Shown here: positions 1,307 through 31,677 of the stretch, piece by piece
Layout of the letters: the number at the start of each line of letters is the position of its first letter
How positions within the stretch are numbered: the stretch's first letter is position 1
Virus record (IMG/VR): IMGVR_UViG_3300025949_000066
Span: 1-31,677 of that record
Source: a virus
Reading direction: 5' to 3' (one strand)
DNA length: 31,677 nt
Position numbers and translations under genes: made by a program
The notes under the pieces: model-generated
The model's database searches: none
The model's input: the letters and a program-made list of their open reading frames with translations, nothing else
Told to the model about the DNA's origin: nothing

Positions 1307-2002
1307 TCAGGCGGCGGTGTAGCCTTGTGCGTTGACGAAAACCGAGCCCGTTCCAGAAGCGGTCAGCGTGACGAACTCCATGAGGGTGTTCGCCGTCCCC
1401 TTGAGCGGGCAGGTGAATTTGATCTCCGCGCCCACGAACGAACCGCCGGTGTTGATCTTGCCGCGCCAAAGCACTGTCCCGCCCGCGCCGTCGCGGATCG
1501 CGATTTCCGTCGCGGTCCCAAGCGTGTCGGCGAAGATTTGCATGCCGGTGAGGTAGTTGCGCACGCCAGAGCCGGCCGCCGCCGCGATCGTTACTGCGGT
1601 GGTTGTGTTCGTGATGCCGCCCGAGGCCGCCGCATAGTTCCAGCGGGAACCACTCAGCGCGAATTGCTGCACCAATAATCCAGCGGCGTCGCTGGTAAAT
1701 AGTGCGATCAATGACGTGAGCCGTTGTGCTATACGCTGAAGCCGTCCATTCAGGCCGGACGATGCGGTATCTGAAGCGGGCGCAGTTTCGGCCAGCGCCC
1801 CGATCGCGGTAACGGCAACGTCATCGTTGGCGAGCGTGATGCGCTGGACGCCGGCACTGACATTGCCAGCCCCACCAAGCGCATCGGTCGCCGCTCCATC
1901 GGCCCCCAAGTTTGGCTTGACGCGCTGATACTGGACGCCGCCGACGTCATCGGTTGCAACCGTGGCGCCAGTTCCTGGAGTAACTGCTACATTATCGACC
2001 AT
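1307..2002 (-). CDS. Beta-rich virion protein, paralogue of 2401-3606 (231 aa)
   Basis: A 231-aa protein clearly paralogous to the product of 2401-3606. The N-termini share a T-P-G-T-G-A-T-x-A-x-D-D-V-G-G block followed by Y-Q-R-V-K. The middle shares ETAPASDTASSGLNGRLQRI and QRLTSLI. The C-terminal domains share GSRWNYAAASGG, AIRDG-x-GGTVLWR and LKGTANTLME. It lacks the roughly 150-residue central insertion of the longer paralogue. These features suggest a conserved attachment region plus a C-terminal beta-sandwich domain. Family members occur near lysis and tail genes of other phages, but no function is established here. The ATG at 2002 follows an AGGGTAGG SD-like sequence. Probably a virion surface or fibre-associated protein (inference). 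Confidence 0.8.
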   Translation of the reverse strand: MVDNVAVTPGTGATVATDDVGGVQYQRVKPNLGADGAATDALGGAGNVSAGVQRITLANDDVAVTAIGALAETAPASDTASSGLNGRLQRIAQRLTSLIALFTSDAAGLLVQQFALSGSRWNYAAASGGITNTTTAVTIAAAAGSGVRNYLTGMQIFADTLGTATEIAIRDGAGGTVLWRGKINTGGSFVGAEIKFTCPLKGTANTLMEFVTLTASGTGSVFVNAQGYTAA

Positions 2003-2041
2003 ATTTGCCTACCCTTGCTGGGAGAGATGAGAGACCGCCCG

Positions 2042-2404
2042 CTAAAACTGACCGGCCGCAAGATCAGGGGTGACGAACGACTTGAACCATCCGGAAAGCT
2101 TTGAGATTGCGCTTACATCAGGAGCCGGCAATCCTTCTTTCGAGAGCACCCGCGCCAGTTCGTCTGGTTCAATGTTAATGATCTGATCGACCTTGGCTGT
2201 TCCGATGTTTGCCATCTTCGGTACTGGCGCGCGCTCGATCGGCTGCCATTCATGGATAAAGCCTGTGTTAGTCTGCAACTCGGCGATTCGCGCGCCGAGG
2301 GTTTGGGCAGGAGCCGGCCCCTCCGTGAATGTCTCGACAATCTCCGATCCGGCCGGGTTGCCGTCCGAGTCCACCAAGGGGCGCGTGATGTAAAAGTCTG
2401 TCAT
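2042..2404 (-). CDS. Hypothetical phage protein (120 aa)
   Basis: A 120-aa soluble protein with no recognised domain. The start is a beta-like segment (residues 1-30), followed by GARIAELQTNTGFIHEW. The second half is more acidic and helical, containing INIEPDELARVLSKEG and ISKLSGWFKSF. It sits between the two large paralogous beta-rich proteins. Its ATG at 2404 overlaps the upstream stop as ATGA (2404-2401), which fixes the start and suggests translational coupling to the 401-aa protein. It could be a chaperone or small virion partner of the flanking proteins, but nothing in the sequence proves this. Confidence 0.75.
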   Translation of the reverse strand: MTDFYITRPLVDSDGNPAGSEIVETFTEGPAPAQTLGARIAELQTNTGFIHEWQPIERAPVPKMANIGTAKVDQIINIEPDELARVLSKEGLPAPDVSAISKLSGWFKSFVTPDLAAGQF

Positions 2405-3606
2405 GCTGCCTGGTATCCTTGAGCGCTAAAGTAGACCGCGCCCGCCCCCGAAGCGGTCAACGTCACCACCTCCATCAAAGTGTTCGCCGTACCCTTCAGG
2501 GGAACGGGAAATTCGATAGTGGTTAAGGAAAGGCCGCCGGTCTGGATCTTGGTCCGCCAAAGCACCGTTCCAGCGGCACCATCGCGGATTGCAACCTCGG
2601 TCGCATTGGTCAAGGCGTCGGCGGCAATCTGAACGCTCGTCACATAATTGCGGACCGAGGCGCCCGCTGCCGCGATGAACGTCACCGCCGTGGTTGTATT
2701 ACTAATACCACCAGACGCCGCTGCGTAGTTCCAGCGCGATCCCGTAAGGGCGTGAGGCTGGGTGACCGCGCCGGCAGTATCGCCCCGCTGACGGTCCCAA
2801 GTGGAGCCGTTGTAAACGAAGCCGTAGTTCGTAGTTGAAAGTATTGATGACGTAGAGGTGGTTGCTACTGCATCGTTATTGGTTGCACCAAAAACCGCAA
2901 CAACGTTCGCCCCTGAATTGATGAGCTGGGTATAAAGCGCCCCCCTTGCGGTAACTTGCAGGTCAGTTCTTTGAGTGTTTGTGTAGGTGGGCAGGGTTGA
3001 ATTATAAACACCCCCGACCTTTACCGGGTTGCCGCTATCCGTGGCGGCCGAAGCAACATTGCCGCCAACAATCAATGGCGTTGCACTGGCGATACCCTGA
3101 ACGGTGATTACATCGGTCGAAGCTGAGCCTGCCGTGCCCAATGCGGGCTGTTTTGCCGCTGTTGCCGCGCCGGTCGGGAGTGAAACGGTGCCCGTGATAT
3201 TGGTGATATTCCATGCGCCGGACTGAGAGGCTGGGAACGCCGTATCTGTATTGGGCACGACGGATAACGAGTTGGCCCCAGTTTGAGCCCCAAGTGAAGT
3301 CGGAAATTGCCCAATGAGTGAGGTAAGCCGTTGTGCAATGCGCTGAAGGCGGCCATTCAAACCTGAAGACGCCGTATCGCTGGCTGGTGCAGTTTCGGTG
3401 AGAGCGCCAGTTTGCAAAACGACCGTGTCGTCACTTGCAATTGTGACTGGAAGCGATGCCGATTTTGTCGTTTGCCCAGGCGCAAGATCAGTAGCCACGC
3501 CGTCAACGCCGACACCGATCTTGACCCGTTGGTAAAGAATGCCGCCGACATCGTCAGCTGCGATCGTTGCGCCCGTCCCAGGTGTGATTGTGGTATTGTC
3601 GGCCAT
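2401..3606 (-). CDS. Beta-rich virion protein with central insertion (401 aa)
   Basis: The 401-aa long form of the local paralogue set. The N-terminal block (D-D-V-G-G-I-L-Y-Q-R-V-K), the ASDTASSGLNGRLQRIAQRL helix near residue 90 and the C-terminal domain starting GSRWNYAAASGG match the 231-aa protein of 1307-2002. Between them is an extra segment of about 150 residues, rich in Thr, Val, Asn and Gly, whose strand-loop pattern (for example VFGATNNDAVATTSTSSI) suggests an inserted beta domain. No enzymatic motif, signal peptide or transmembrane helix is visible. The ATG at 3606 has a GAAGG SD 9 nt upstream. It follows the spanin genes after about 115 bp of non-coding DNA. A tail or head fibre-like role is inferred. 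Confidence 0.8.
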   Translation of the reverse strand: MADNTTITPGTGATIAADDVGGILYQRVKIGVGVDGVATDLAPGQTTKSASLPVTIASDDTVVLQTGALTETAPASDTASSGLNGRLQRIAQRLTSLIGQFPTSLGAQTGANSLSVVPNTDTAFPASQSGAWNITNITGTVSLPTGAATAAKQPALGTAGSASTDVITVQGIASATPLIVGGNVASAATDSGNPVKVGGVYNSTLPTYTNTQRTDLQVTARGALYTQLINSGANVVAVFGATNNDAVATTSTSSILSTTNYGFVYNGSTWDRQRGDTAGAVTQPHALTGSRWNYAAASGGISNTTTAVTFIAAAGASVRNYVTSVQIAADALTNATEVAIRDGAAGTVLWRTKIQTGGLSLTTIEFPVPLKGTANTLMEVVTLTASGAGAVYFSAQGYQAA

Positions 3607-27325: not shown

Positions 27326-27808
27326 ATGAACGATATCGAGACCAGAGAACTTGAGGATTTGAAGCAGTCGGTCCTACTTGAAGAGGACTTCCATTTAGCG
27401 GCCACGTTATTCGTCAAGATCAATGACTTAGAAGACTACATAATCGACGAGGAGAAACCGAACGCACATTTTGATGAAGTGAGGCGTGAACTCGAATCTT
27501 TTAACCAGCATCTGCAAGACCGTGTGCTGAACCACGCCGTCAAGGCTACGCTGGAAACGCTCACGAACAAGCAAGCCTACGAGGTTTATGTCACTTCAGA
27601 GGGTGTTGAGATCGAGGCTCACCCTATGTTCGCCATGGCCAGCGACAAGGACATTAGAGAATATCTCGATGGATTGTGGCAGTCTCCGTTCACCACGATA
27701 ACCCTTTCGTGGCAACGTATCGTCGAAAGAACAGAGCCAGAGGATCGTAGCAAACTGGCGGACATTCTGGAGCTTATGGCTAAGAACATTCGCGAGAATA
27801 AGGTTTAA
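27326..27808 (+). CDS. Acidic soluble cargo protein on the plus strand (160 aa)
   Basis: Second opposite-strand gene within the late cluster. ATG at 27326 has an excellent SD (GGAGG, 5 nt); an upstream in-frame ATG at 27314 lacks one. The 160-aa product is strongly acidic and helical in its first half (LKQSVLLEEDFHLAAT, DLEDYIIDEEKP), then has a short strand region (AYEVYVTSEGVEIEAH) and a charged helical end. No signal peptide or membrane segment. Codon choice is more A/T-ending than in its neighbours, suggesting recent gain. Its TAA overlaps the terL stop by 4 nt, tail to tail. Function unknown; a defence, anti-defence or host-control role would be typical of such morons but is unproven. 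Confidence 0.75.
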   Translation: MNDIETRELEDLKQSVLLEEDFHLAATLFVKINDLEDYIIDEEKPNAHFDEVRRELESFNQHLQDRVLNHAVKATLETLTNKQAYEVYVTSEGVEIEAHPMFAMASDKDIREYLDGLWQSPFTTITLSWQRIVERTEPEDRSKLADILELMAKNIRENKV

Positions 27809-29388
27809 CGCTTCCTTGAGAATGTCGGCCCTCGGCCAAAAACGACATTGGGCACGACAGGCCGGCGATGAGACTGCGCCGCCTTCCGCCATTCGGTTGC
27901 CTCAGTCACGGCCTTGGCACCCGACCACCAGCACATCACGGTCGCGTCGCCCTTGTCCGGCGAGCGGCCAAGACGCTTCACCAGCTTGTCCTTTGGCTCC
28001 AAGTGGATGACCATACCGCCCTTGCCCGACTTGGTTTCGAACGTCGGGGCGGTCAGATCAGCCAGCAATTCCTTGTCAGGCGGCAGCGCCATCGTGGCAC
28101 CACCCGGTTGCGTCGGGTCCAACGCCTCGCGCAGCAGCCAATAGGCCTCGGTGCGAACATTGGCGAAGCGCAGTTGATTGTCCCGCGTCCGCCGTACCGA
28201 TTCCTTGACGCCCATATAGCCAACGGCATCAACGCCATTCTTGACCAGATGCGCCTGAGCATCGCCACCCCAGCCACCACCAAGGTCGACAATCACCTTC
28301 GCATTATCGAGGCGCTTGGCGAGAACCCTGCCAGCAACATCGGCCCCACCCGGCGTTTCAACACCAGGAATGGCAATCGGATCAGCGAACCAGTCATCGT
28401 AGCGAATGGCGATGACCGTCTTGTCAGTTCCCCCTTGCGCCACGTCGACGCCGATCGCGCACATCGGGATATGCGGAGCAGGCTGTGGCTTCCAGCGGCG
28501 TTGGGCTTCCTTCACCCATTCGGTCGGAATACATTGGTTGAGTTCGTCCTGAACGCCGGCCGCGAAGTCACCATATTTGAGCTGGGAGCGGAGCGGTTCG
28601 GGGAGGCTGTCGATCTTGGCGCGATATTCCGCCGTGTCGCGATATGGGTTGTCTGAAAGAGCAGCCGGGATGAAGGTGAAGGACAACACCTCGCGCTGCT
28701 TGCCGTCTAGCCATGCGTCCTCAGGACCATCAACCCAGATAGGCGCTCCGTCGTCCATGATGGCGTAGCGCAATTCTCCGGCATCAGCTTTCCGTGGATG
28801 GTTAGGATCGAGCCACGGCGCGAACCATTCCTGCATCCAATAGCCGTCAGCCGATCGCGGCGGATTGGACGCGAGAACGACCCTTGCCCTTTGCCCTTCA
28901 GGCCCACGGTTCCAGGCCAGAAGAGACGCCACCTGTTCGCGCAGAAACTCGCCAGCCTCGTCATAAACGATCAGATCGCGCTCGCGGCCGGCGTGCTTGT
29001 TCCAGTCTCCAGCGAGCTGCATGCCCGCTAGTTTGAGCGAACGGCCATCAGGCCAGTTCCATTCCTTGTCGGTGCCGTTGAAGCCAGCTGTCCCGTAGAT
29101 TTCCTTGCCGGCGGCTTCGAGCCCATCCGTCTGGGCTGATTCCCTGCGAAAGATGATCGAGCGTTTGTGCTCCTGCGCCAGCCCGACCGAGAGGAAGGTC
29201 TTACCTCCCGCCGCTTGTCCGCCATAGAGCAGGACATCGGCCTGGCTGAGATAGGCGTCGGTTTGAGGTCCCGGCAGAGGAACGAACCGCAGATCCTTGA
29301 CCGCTGCCTGAGCCAGCCTCTTGACGTTCTCGCGCTCGTTTTCGGGGAGTTCCTGAAACCTGGCGAGAACGTCGTCGAGGAGTGACAT
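27805..29388 (-). CDS. terL: Terminase large subunit (527 aa)
   Basis: Packaging motor ATPase and nuclease. ATPase: Walker A GGQAAGGKT (56-64) and Walker B LIVYDEA with D143-E144; ASNPP (173-177) fits the coupling motif. RNase-H-like nuclease acids: D315 in IGVDVAQGGTDKT, D368 in VIVDLGGGWGG and D481 in KGDATVMCWW. All key residues are present and length is normal. The ATG at 29388 overlaps the upstream stop (TGATG). An unusual feature is that a virion-like protein gene separates it from terS. It should bind the portal and translocate DNA. Confidence 0.95.
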   Translation of the reverse strand: MSLLDDVLARFQELPENERENVKRLAQAAVKDLRFVPLPGPQTDAYLSQADVLLYGGQAAGGKTFLSVGLAQEHKRSIIFRRESAQTDGLEAAGKEIYGTAGFNGTDKEWNWPDGRSLKLAGMQLAGDWNKHAGRERDLIVYDEAGEFLREQVASLLAWNRGPEGQRARVVLASNPPRSADGYWMQEWFAPWLDPNHPRKADAGELRYAIMDDGAPIWVDGPEDAWLDGKQREVLSFTFIPAALSDNPYRDTAEYRAKIDSLPEPLRSQLKYGDFAAGVQDELNQCIPTEWVKEAQRRWKPQPAPHIPMCAIGVDVAQGGTDKTVIAIRYDDWFADPIAIPGVETPGGADVAGRVLAKRLDNAKVIVDLGGGWGGDAQAHLVKNGVDAVGYMGVKESVRRTRDNQLRFANVRTEAYWLLREALDPTQPGGATMALPPDKELLADLTAPTFETKSGKGGMVIHLEPKDKLVKRLGRSPDKGDATVMCWWSGAKAVTEATEWRKAAQSHRRPVVPNVVFGRGPTFSRKR

Positions 29389-29987: not shown

Positions 29988-30422
29988 TCAGTGTGCGGTC
30001 GGCTGAGCACCGCGCGCCAGCGTAAACGCGATAGCTTTCGCCATGTCTCGGTCTGACATGTCGGCCGTCTCGATCGGGCCGCCGTCCTTGCCGGTGAGTT
30101 CTGAACGCTCCACGATGAGCCCTAGGACCTTAGCCTTGCCCATGGTTGCCGAGATTGCGGCAGCGGGAGCCTCTAGATCGCGCGCGAACGTGCGGTCCTC
30201 GTCAAGCTGGGCCGCAATGTCGTAGACCGTGATTGCAGCTTTCTCGGCTGCTACAGCCTTCAATTCCGCCACTCTGGCAGCAACCTTATCATTTCTTATC
30301 AGCCGCGATGCATTGGCCTCTACAGGCTCATATCCAGCCAGCCGATATGCTTCGATCTGAGAATTCCCCTTCGCCAACTCCTGTGCGAAGCGTTCGTGAC
30401 GGGCATTCTCAAGGACAGGCAT
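29988..30422 (-). CDS. terS: Terminase small subunit (144 aa)
   Basis: DNA-recognition subunit of the packaging enzyme. N-terminal helix-turn-helix region of the terminase_2 type: HERFAQELAKGNSQIEAYRLAGY, followed by A-S-R-L-I-R-N-D-K-V and ARVAELKAVAAEKAA. A helical oligomerisation part follows (YDIAAQLDEDRTFARDL, then MGKAKVLGLIVERSELTGKDG). ATG at 30422 is chosen over the adjacent GTG because it gives a TGATG overlap with the upstream gene. Its site of action (pac or cos) is not identifiable in the window. Confidence 0.88.
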   Translation of the reverse strand: MPVLENARHERFAQELAKGNSQIEAYRLAGYEPVEANASRLIRNDKVAARVAELKAVAAEKAAITVYDIAAQLDEDRTFARDLEAPAAAISATMGKAKVLGLIVERSELTGKDGGPIETADMSDRDMAKAIAFTLARGAQPTAH

Positions 30423-30703
30423 CACGCCACCACGATAACCTTGTGGCCCGGCAGAACCCCGAAATCATGCCATACACCGGCAGGAAGCGGGATCTTGTTC
30501 GTTACCCCGGTCGGAGCGGTGCCGAACTCGATATTGCAAGCCGTCGTCGTGTATATTGCTACCAGCGTGGTGCCGAGTGTGAAAGCGCTTGAAGCCGCTC
30601 CGCCGATTGATAGCACCTGCCGAGCGCGCGGCGGCATCTGGCGCACGGGCGCCTCGCTGGAGATGACGGGATTCAGTTCAAGCACCGTGACTTCGTTTGC
30701 CAT
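30422..30703 (-). CDS. Small virion-associated protein (93 aa)
   Basis: First gene of the leftward late block. A 93-aa beta-rich protein: MANEVTVLELNPV start, AFTLGTTLVAIYTT middle, then IEFGTAPTGVTNK, I-P-L-P-A-G and FGVLPGHKVIVVA end. Proteins with this strand pattern are found near terminase genes in phages and are suspected decoration or fibre components. ATG at 30703 has GGAG at 7 nt. Role unproven. Confidence 0.7.
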   Translation of the reverse strand: MANEVTVLELNPVISSEAPVRQMPPRARQVLSIGGAASSAFTLGTTLVAIYTTTACNIEFGTAPTGVTNKIPLPAGVWHDFGVLPGHKVIVVA

Positions 30704-31374: not shown

Positions 31375-31418
31375 GTATATAATTGCCTCTTACCATCCGC
31401 CGATTCGTGGGGCAAGTT

Positions 31419-31504
31419 GGGAGCGCTCTATCCAGTTGAGCTACGCCATCAGGTCTCTAGAAAACCATCATCTGGCGGCGGGGTTCGAACTCGCAACCTC
31501 TCCC
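31419..31504 (-). other. Permuted tRNA-like element (3' half before 5' half)
   Basis: On the minus strand, a tRNA 3' half comes first: anticodon-stem strand GGGAG (31504-31500), variable loop AGGTT, T stem GCGAG, T loop TTCGAAC, CCCGC, acceptor CGCCAGA (31477-31471). After a 20-nt spacer comes a 5' half: acceptor GATGGCG (31450-31444), TA, D stem GCTC, loop AACTGGATA, GAGC, G26, then CTCCC (31423-31419). The halves match each other: CTCCC pairs fully with GGGAG, the acceptor pairs in 5 of 7 positions, and tertiary positions fit (G18-G19, A15/U48, G26/A44). No normal-order tRNA can be drawn, and U33 and CCA are absent. It may be an attachment-site relic, a captured tandem-tRNA junction, or a permuted tRNA. 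Confidence 0.6.
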
Positions 31505-31598
31505 TCGGTCATCAATATAGTCTATAATCGCACCAAAAGGAAGGCGATTCGGGATCAGGGCGACGAGCCGGTGGAGGGGTTGGGGAGGTTTGGCAGCG

Positions 31599-31677
31599 AT
31601 GCCTGAGCCAGTTTATGACCTACGCACCGGCAAGCAGGTTGCGGTCGCCTATTGGCCCGAGGAATTGCCGGAGCCTA
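31599..31677 (+). CDS. Plus-strand gene start, cut by window edge
   Basis: Open frame from ATG at 31599 to the right edge (26 residues: MPEPVYDLRTG, then AVAYWPEELPEP). GGAGG lies 10 nt upstream. Another coding-like plus frame without a usable start ends at 31606 (ending GLGRFGSDA), overlapping by 8 nt, and a TATAAT lacking a good -35 lies at 31523-31528. It marks the switch to rightward genes, perhaps the early region. Too little is visible for a function. Confidence 0.55.
   Translation, partial: MPEPVYDLRTGKQVAVAYWPEELPEP

Follow-up and report, generated by a model that had tools for sequence, protein, structure and literature searches.

A permuted tRNA-like module in a T7-like podovirus fragment, possibly an orphan tRNA mimic of the Y RNA kind

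Known Y RNAs have a tRNA-like body joined to a stem that binds Ro60/Rsr, and circularly permuted tRNA genes are found in red algae and archaea. In the account given in PMC8394870, YrlA has D, T and acceptor arms resembling those of tRNA; DusA and TruB modify it, and it tethers Rsr to PNPase. The tRNA-like domain of YrlA has been proposed as a competitor of an anticodon nuclease (in a passage of PMC7790460), and mycobacteriophages are reported to carry Y RNAs (as stated in PMC12282133). The Rfam model of YrlA (RF02553) describes the tRNA-mimic module of these RNAs as a T arm, an acceptor-like hairpin and a D arm within a closing stem. Here we describe a module with the same order of arms in IMG/VR record IMGVR_UViG_3300025949_000066, the 31,677 nt of which (hereafter the window) are the structural module in a fragment of a soil phage, a T7-like podovirus, and include genes for TerS, TerL, portal/head-tail adaptor, capsid and tail proteins.

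Arrangement and pairing of the module

On the minus strand, from 31504 to 31419, direct reading shows the 3' half of a tRNA ahead of the 5' half. An earlier note on this DNA had reported T-arm and D-arm halves in reversed order on the minus strand, 20 nt apart, and its coordinates and pairings proved correct. The parts, in 5' to 3' order on this strand, are as follows.

31419..31504, minus strand: permuted tRNA-like module, consisting of 3' half, 20-nt spacer and 5' half (sequence, RNAfold, Rfam, recurrence)
31500..31504, minus strand: closing (anticodon-like) stem, 5' strand GGGAG, 5/5 pairs with 31419-31423 (sequence, RNAfold)
31499-31495, minus strand: variable region AGGTT (sequence)
31478..31494, minus strand: T arm GCGAG-TTCGAAC-CCCGC, 4/5 pairs, mismatch A52 x C62 (sequence)
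31471..31477, minus strand: acceptor-like 3' strand CGCCAGA, 5 contiguous pairs with TGGCG 31448-31444
31451..31470, minus strand: 20-nt spacer between the acceptor strands, forming an extended acceptor loop (RNAfold)
31444..31450, minus strand: acceptor-like 5' strand GATGGCG (sequence, RNAfold)
31425..31441, minus strand: D arm GCTC-AACTGGATA-GAGC, with G18G19 and A14/A21, 4/4 pairs (sequence)
31419..31423, minus strand: closing (anticodon-like) stem, 3' strand CTCCC (sequence, RNAfold)

The 3' half is thus made up of the closing strand GGGAG, the variable region, the T arm and the acceptor strand CGCCAGA, and the 5' half of the acceptor strand GATGGCG, T8 and A9 leading into the D arm, G26 directly after that arm, and CTCCC. 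The complementarity of CTCCC and GGGAG noticed earlier holds at all five positions, and the stem is formed by RNAfold. Acceptor pairing is 5/7, the same count as before, with the pairs contiguous from the inside and pairs 1-72 and 2-71 broken. In the spacer (31470-31451), a GGUUUU/GAGACC hairpin is possible. The best unconstrained structure in RNAfold (-28.6 kcal/mol) has the closing, acceptor and D stems together with the hairpin in the spacer, and a structure with the canonical T arm is less favorable by about 3 kcal/mol (-25.6). The module shows no excess folding stability (z -0.34).

Several parts of a complete tRNA are missing. Neither an anticodon loop nor U33 is present in the sequence after CTCCC or on either side of the module, and the acceptor end lacks CCA, which bears out the earlier remark that U33 and CCA are absent and that the T and acceptor stems (4/5 and 5/7 pairs) are imperfect. 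ARAGORN calls no tRNA in the module and no complete tRNA on either flank, Rfam gives no match for the module at gathering thresholds, and no promoter or terminator of the module was found by consensus. The idea of a group I intron with permuted exons was dropped, as no intron family was found by Rfam at even E 5.

To judge how well the two halves fit, ordered pairs of tRNAs from the fetched loci were scored for at least 5 contiguous acceptor pairs together with a 5/5 anticodon stem. Of the 270,504 pairs that differ in isotype, 126 (0.047%) have such pairing, as do 0.56% of the 16,256 pairs that share an isotype. The module halves therefore fit far better than unrelated tRNAs do and belong together: they come from a single permuted tRNA or from two copies of the same tRNA, or they form a structure maintained in this arrangement. 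In the library of tRNAs from fetched loci, the 5' half is nearest to tRNA-Arg(CCT). The isotype of the 3' half is ambiguous, and its best library match is no tRNA-Arg but an ARAGORN call within a Y RNA locus linked to TROVE.

Comparison with YrlA and a survey of viral contigs

At permissive thresholds YrlA (RF02553) is the sole Rfam family at the module, with 26.5 bits in the window (E 0.003, model positions 23-85) and 26.8 bits (E 0.0025) in the related phage contig G001. The score of the window module is far under the gathering cut of 69 bits. Moreover, ordinary tandem tRNA arrays score 25-31 bits with the same model, so that 26.5 bits decides nothing, and the match was not taken at face value. 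A second model (R1), built from TROVE-linked phage Y RNAs, was likewise rejected as a discriminator, since it gives the window 39.9 bits, within the range of the tandem-tRNA controls (39-57). We further searched for Ro-binding motifs with flank profiles, using one half of the phage Y RNAs for training and the other for testing. The 5' flank of the window module scores -0.4 bits, like shuffles, and its 3' flank 3.2/1.5 bits, like tandem tRNAs, and the flanks of held-out phage Y RNAs have median scores of 15-19 bits. Two candidate Ro motifs, GGUGCGA in the 5' flank (from the R1 alignment) and ACUUG past the closing stem, were given up because the flank test gave no signal. No Ro60/TROVE gene is present in the window (G000), G001 or a third contig, G002, all of which are fragments, and none of these contigs has an RtcB gene.

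The module shares with the YrlA RNAs of a Rhizobium etli plasmid (L020/L022) and Gordonia phage Boopy (L021) the order of the arms, the closing stem and canonical T and D loops, and like stem-closed Y RNAs it has no anticodon loop on either side. It differs from YrlA in having neither a Ro-binding basal stem nor a Ro/TROVE gene, in the 20-nt spacer within the acceptor loop and the T-stem mismatch, and in its score, 26.5 bits against a cut of 69. The window module is not a member of YrlA as defined; by analogy, it may work like, or once have worked like, the effector module of YrlA.

Two observations were made at these reference loci. In Gordonia phage Boopy (MK894436), an annotated tRNA-Leu (88742-88830) overlaps a YrlA match of 52 bits (L021:1980-2079), with a gene for a Ro-like protein about 1.2 kb away, and the tRNA-Leu annotation is probably wrong. 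The Rhizobium etli plasmid bears an array of several YrlA-like RNAs (57, 98 and 33 bits; L020:3852-4424) with RtcR nearby, located between the TROVE gene and the next gene, which is RtcB in the related plasmid L022.

We scanned viral contigs with one narrow DNA pattern for the permuted order and obtained at least 119 matches (L024-L140). Among the matches listed, 26 are tandem tRNAs, all with 0-4 contiguous acceptor pairs. It is evident that the two kinds are split by the acceptor hairpin: among the matches listed, 52 of 74 non-tandem cases have at least 5 contiguous acceptor pairs, whereas none of the 26 tandem controls does. They are also split by gene content, a TROVE/Ro60 gene being found in the fetched locus of 46 of the 76 non-tandem cases but only 1 of the 26 tandem controls among the matches listed. 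An alignment of 39 copies, 38 of them from viral contigs and one the Gordonia phage reference, reveals numerous compensatory changes in the hairpin. These results suggest that permuted modules outside tRNA arrays in viruses are usually Y RNAs, and phage Y RNAs appear to be widespread in viral contigs. Also in this survey, ARAGORN calls tRNAs at the 3'-half side of 13 distinct non-tandem cases among the matches listed. One permuted tRNA-like element (L132:2653-2776) stands alone and has an acceptor hairpin of 7 bp. A promoter-like TTGACA-N17-TATACT sequence immediately precedes it, a GC-rich hairpin and then AAAAA come after it, and no TROVE gene lies in its 4-kb locus.

With 5 acceptor pairs, a 5/5 closing stem and no flanking tRNAs, the window module falls on the non-tandem side of the split. 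It resembles the IMG/VR phage Y RNAs with TROVE genes (L024-L140) in its permuted order, strong acceptor hairpin and viral location. The latter, however, usually have an anticodon-arm-like hairpin, a conserved 5' GGUUACUUC-type flank and a 3' Ro-binding flank, which the window lacks. Of the three readings offered in the earlier note, a tRNA mimic fits best, given the module order of Y RNAs and the many phage examples. We therefore tentatively favor the reading that the module is an orphan, reduced or decaying tRNA-mimic RNA of a T7-like podovirus, Y-RNA-like and of the YrlA kind, a reading that may well prove wrong.

Phage context and competing explanations

The neighborhood of the module and the block common to the window and G001 are defined by the following features.

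27805..29388, minus strand: terminase large subunit (PHROG 979, E 2e-37)
29988..30425, minus strand: terminase small subunit, downstream of the module and on its strand (PHROG 51, E 6e-13)
31386..31677, no strand assigned: block common to the window and phage G001, 98.3% identical, with homology ending 33 bp past the module
31600..31677, plus strand: divergent small gene (MPEP gene), MPEPVYDLRTGKQVAVAYWPEELPEP..., cut by the window end, 60 aa in G001

The module is thus placed between the divergent MPEP gene and the terminase side. It recurs in two other viral contigs, being identical in G002 and lying within 292 bp of 98.3% identity in G001, a temperate relative whose structural genes are syntenic with those of the window. 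The window and G001 differ by 5 substitutions, of which none is in the tRNA-like helices (0 in 66 nt, which is not significant), and one of them, 31456 A>G in G001, keeps a pair of the spacer hairpin as U-G. Conservation of the module is weak: only two distinct copies are known, with no informative covariation, and searches through TerL, MPEP and the MPEP-adjoining gene gave few further relatives and no third distinct copy. Homologs of the MPEP gene are present in G001, G002, G005 and G006, and in G005 and G006 the module does not adjoin the gene. Two side observations concern the window and G001. Diverged repeats of about 330 bp are common to two proteins (231 aa and 401 aa) encoded within 1307-3606 of the window, and likewise in G001. 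In G001, just downstream of the module (L002:288-364), ARAGORN calls a tRNA-Ser(cga) that includes two T-arm-like hairpins, has a poor fold and may be another tRNA remnant.

The main rival of the tRNA-mimic reading is a recombination scar, in which the tRNA halves were left by tRNA-directed integration, by aberrant excision or by the capture of a tandem-tRNA junction, and which would be ancestral and no longer functional as RNA. We regard this as possible but doubtful. The homology between the window and G001 ends 33 bp past the module, and the MPEP homologs of G005 and G006 are without it, which together place the module at a mosaic junction. The relatives, moreover, integrate in tRNAs. Past the homology break G001 has a tyrosine integrase with an attP of its own, a tRNA 3' end including CCA, located about 3.5 kb from the module. 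In G006, a 52-kb phage contig ending in tRNA-Arg(CCT), the two ends carry a direct repeat of 127 bp (L155:1-127 and L156:2767-2893) that comprises the 5' half of this tRNA as far as the anticodon loop, plus upstream sequence; on integration, the 5' half of the tRNA seems to come from the phage. The phage group thus uses tRNA attachment sites, and the similarity of the module's 5' half to tRNA-Arg(CCT) is also in favor of a scar, as is the T-stem mismatch, which suggests that there is no selection for the tRNA fold.

Against this, the 3' half finds its best library match at the TROVE-linked Y RNA locus rather than in tRNA-Arg. As tRNA attachment sites normally do, those of G001 and G006 keep the anticodon loop, whereas the module keeps none on either side. 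These sites (G001 attP, G006 attL/attR), which belong to related temperate phages, are like the module in consisting of tRNA segments with a cut close to the anticodon, but the module has both halves, in reversed order, with no loop core and away from an integrase. In fact no integrase is encoded in the window, and the module is not the attP of any integrase found. An exact host tRNA donor was sought for either half and rejected, as neither half has an exact match among 84,980 GTDB species genomes, of which the host species, probably alphaproteobacterial, may not be one. Finally, a junction of unrelated tRNAs pairs as well as the module in only 0.05% of cases, so a scar would need two copies of one tRNA. 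The suggestion of the earlier note that the module is an attP captured from two tandem host tRNA copies is thus weakened by the want of an integrase, of exact genome matches and of a loop core.

It is unlikely that the module is what remains of an ordinary phage tandem tRNA array after deletion of the outer halves. Tandem tRNA junctions are similar in sequence and score equally with the YrlA and R1 models, but there is no complete tRNA on either side according to ARAGORN, 5 acceptor pairs are seen in 0 of 26 tandem pairs, and both cuts would have to fall exactly at the anticodon stem. A plasmid match of 72% identity that seemed permuted (H41) was rejected, since the Streptococcus record in question has an ordinary array of tandem tRNAs there.

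Chance resemblance or an assembly artefact is very unlikely. The few copies known could be read this way, but the module occurs in three contigs of two distinct viruses and consists of long tRNA modules with matched stems, and the independent contigs in the main refute this explanation.

Least probable of all is a functional circularly permuted tRNA gene, whose transcript would have its anticodon end ligated and its acceptor end trimmed: the 3' half encoded ahead of the 5' half as in the red-algal and archaeal genes, the complementary anticodon stem and the canonical elbow residues speak for this proposal of the earlier note, but unlike those genes the module has no anticodon loop with U33, no CCA and no complete acceptor stem (1-72 and 2-71 being broken), the T stem is mismatched, RtcB is absent from the contigs, and the literature searched yielded no published bacterial or phage example of a permuted tRNA gene.

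Implications of a Ro-free tRNA mimic

If the module is an orphan tRNA mimic, its minus-strand transcript would be expected to stack the T-arm/acceptor-like helix and the D-arm/closing-stem helix, joined by the contacts of the tRNA elbow. The folded module would then be a tRNA body with neither an anticodon loop nor a free 3' end. There is neither a Ro stem nor a Ro gene here, and the RNA, if still functional, would most likely act as a free tRNA look-alike. Such a molecule would occupy tRNA-binding proteins, e.g., modification enzymes, PNPase and anticodon nucleases, and without Ro and without an anticodon loop it would be a look-alike that cannot be cleaved. More broadly, there is a small chance that phages use permuted tRNA bodies lacking both Ro and an anticodon loop to decoy, on their own, enzymes that bind tRNA (host anticodon nucleases, for example), and that the window element and orphans such as the L132 element are early examples of a class derived from Y RNAs that works without Ro60.

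What had looked like an odd "permuted tRNA" is now tied to a known, little-studied kind of RNA, the Y RNAs. As the controlled scan shows, many phage contigs carry permuted tRNA mimics, which usually accompany Ro60 genes and in part are called tRNAs by a standard program. The Ro-free copies, if functional, would be uncleavable tRNA look-alikes in the conflict between phage and host over tRNAs.
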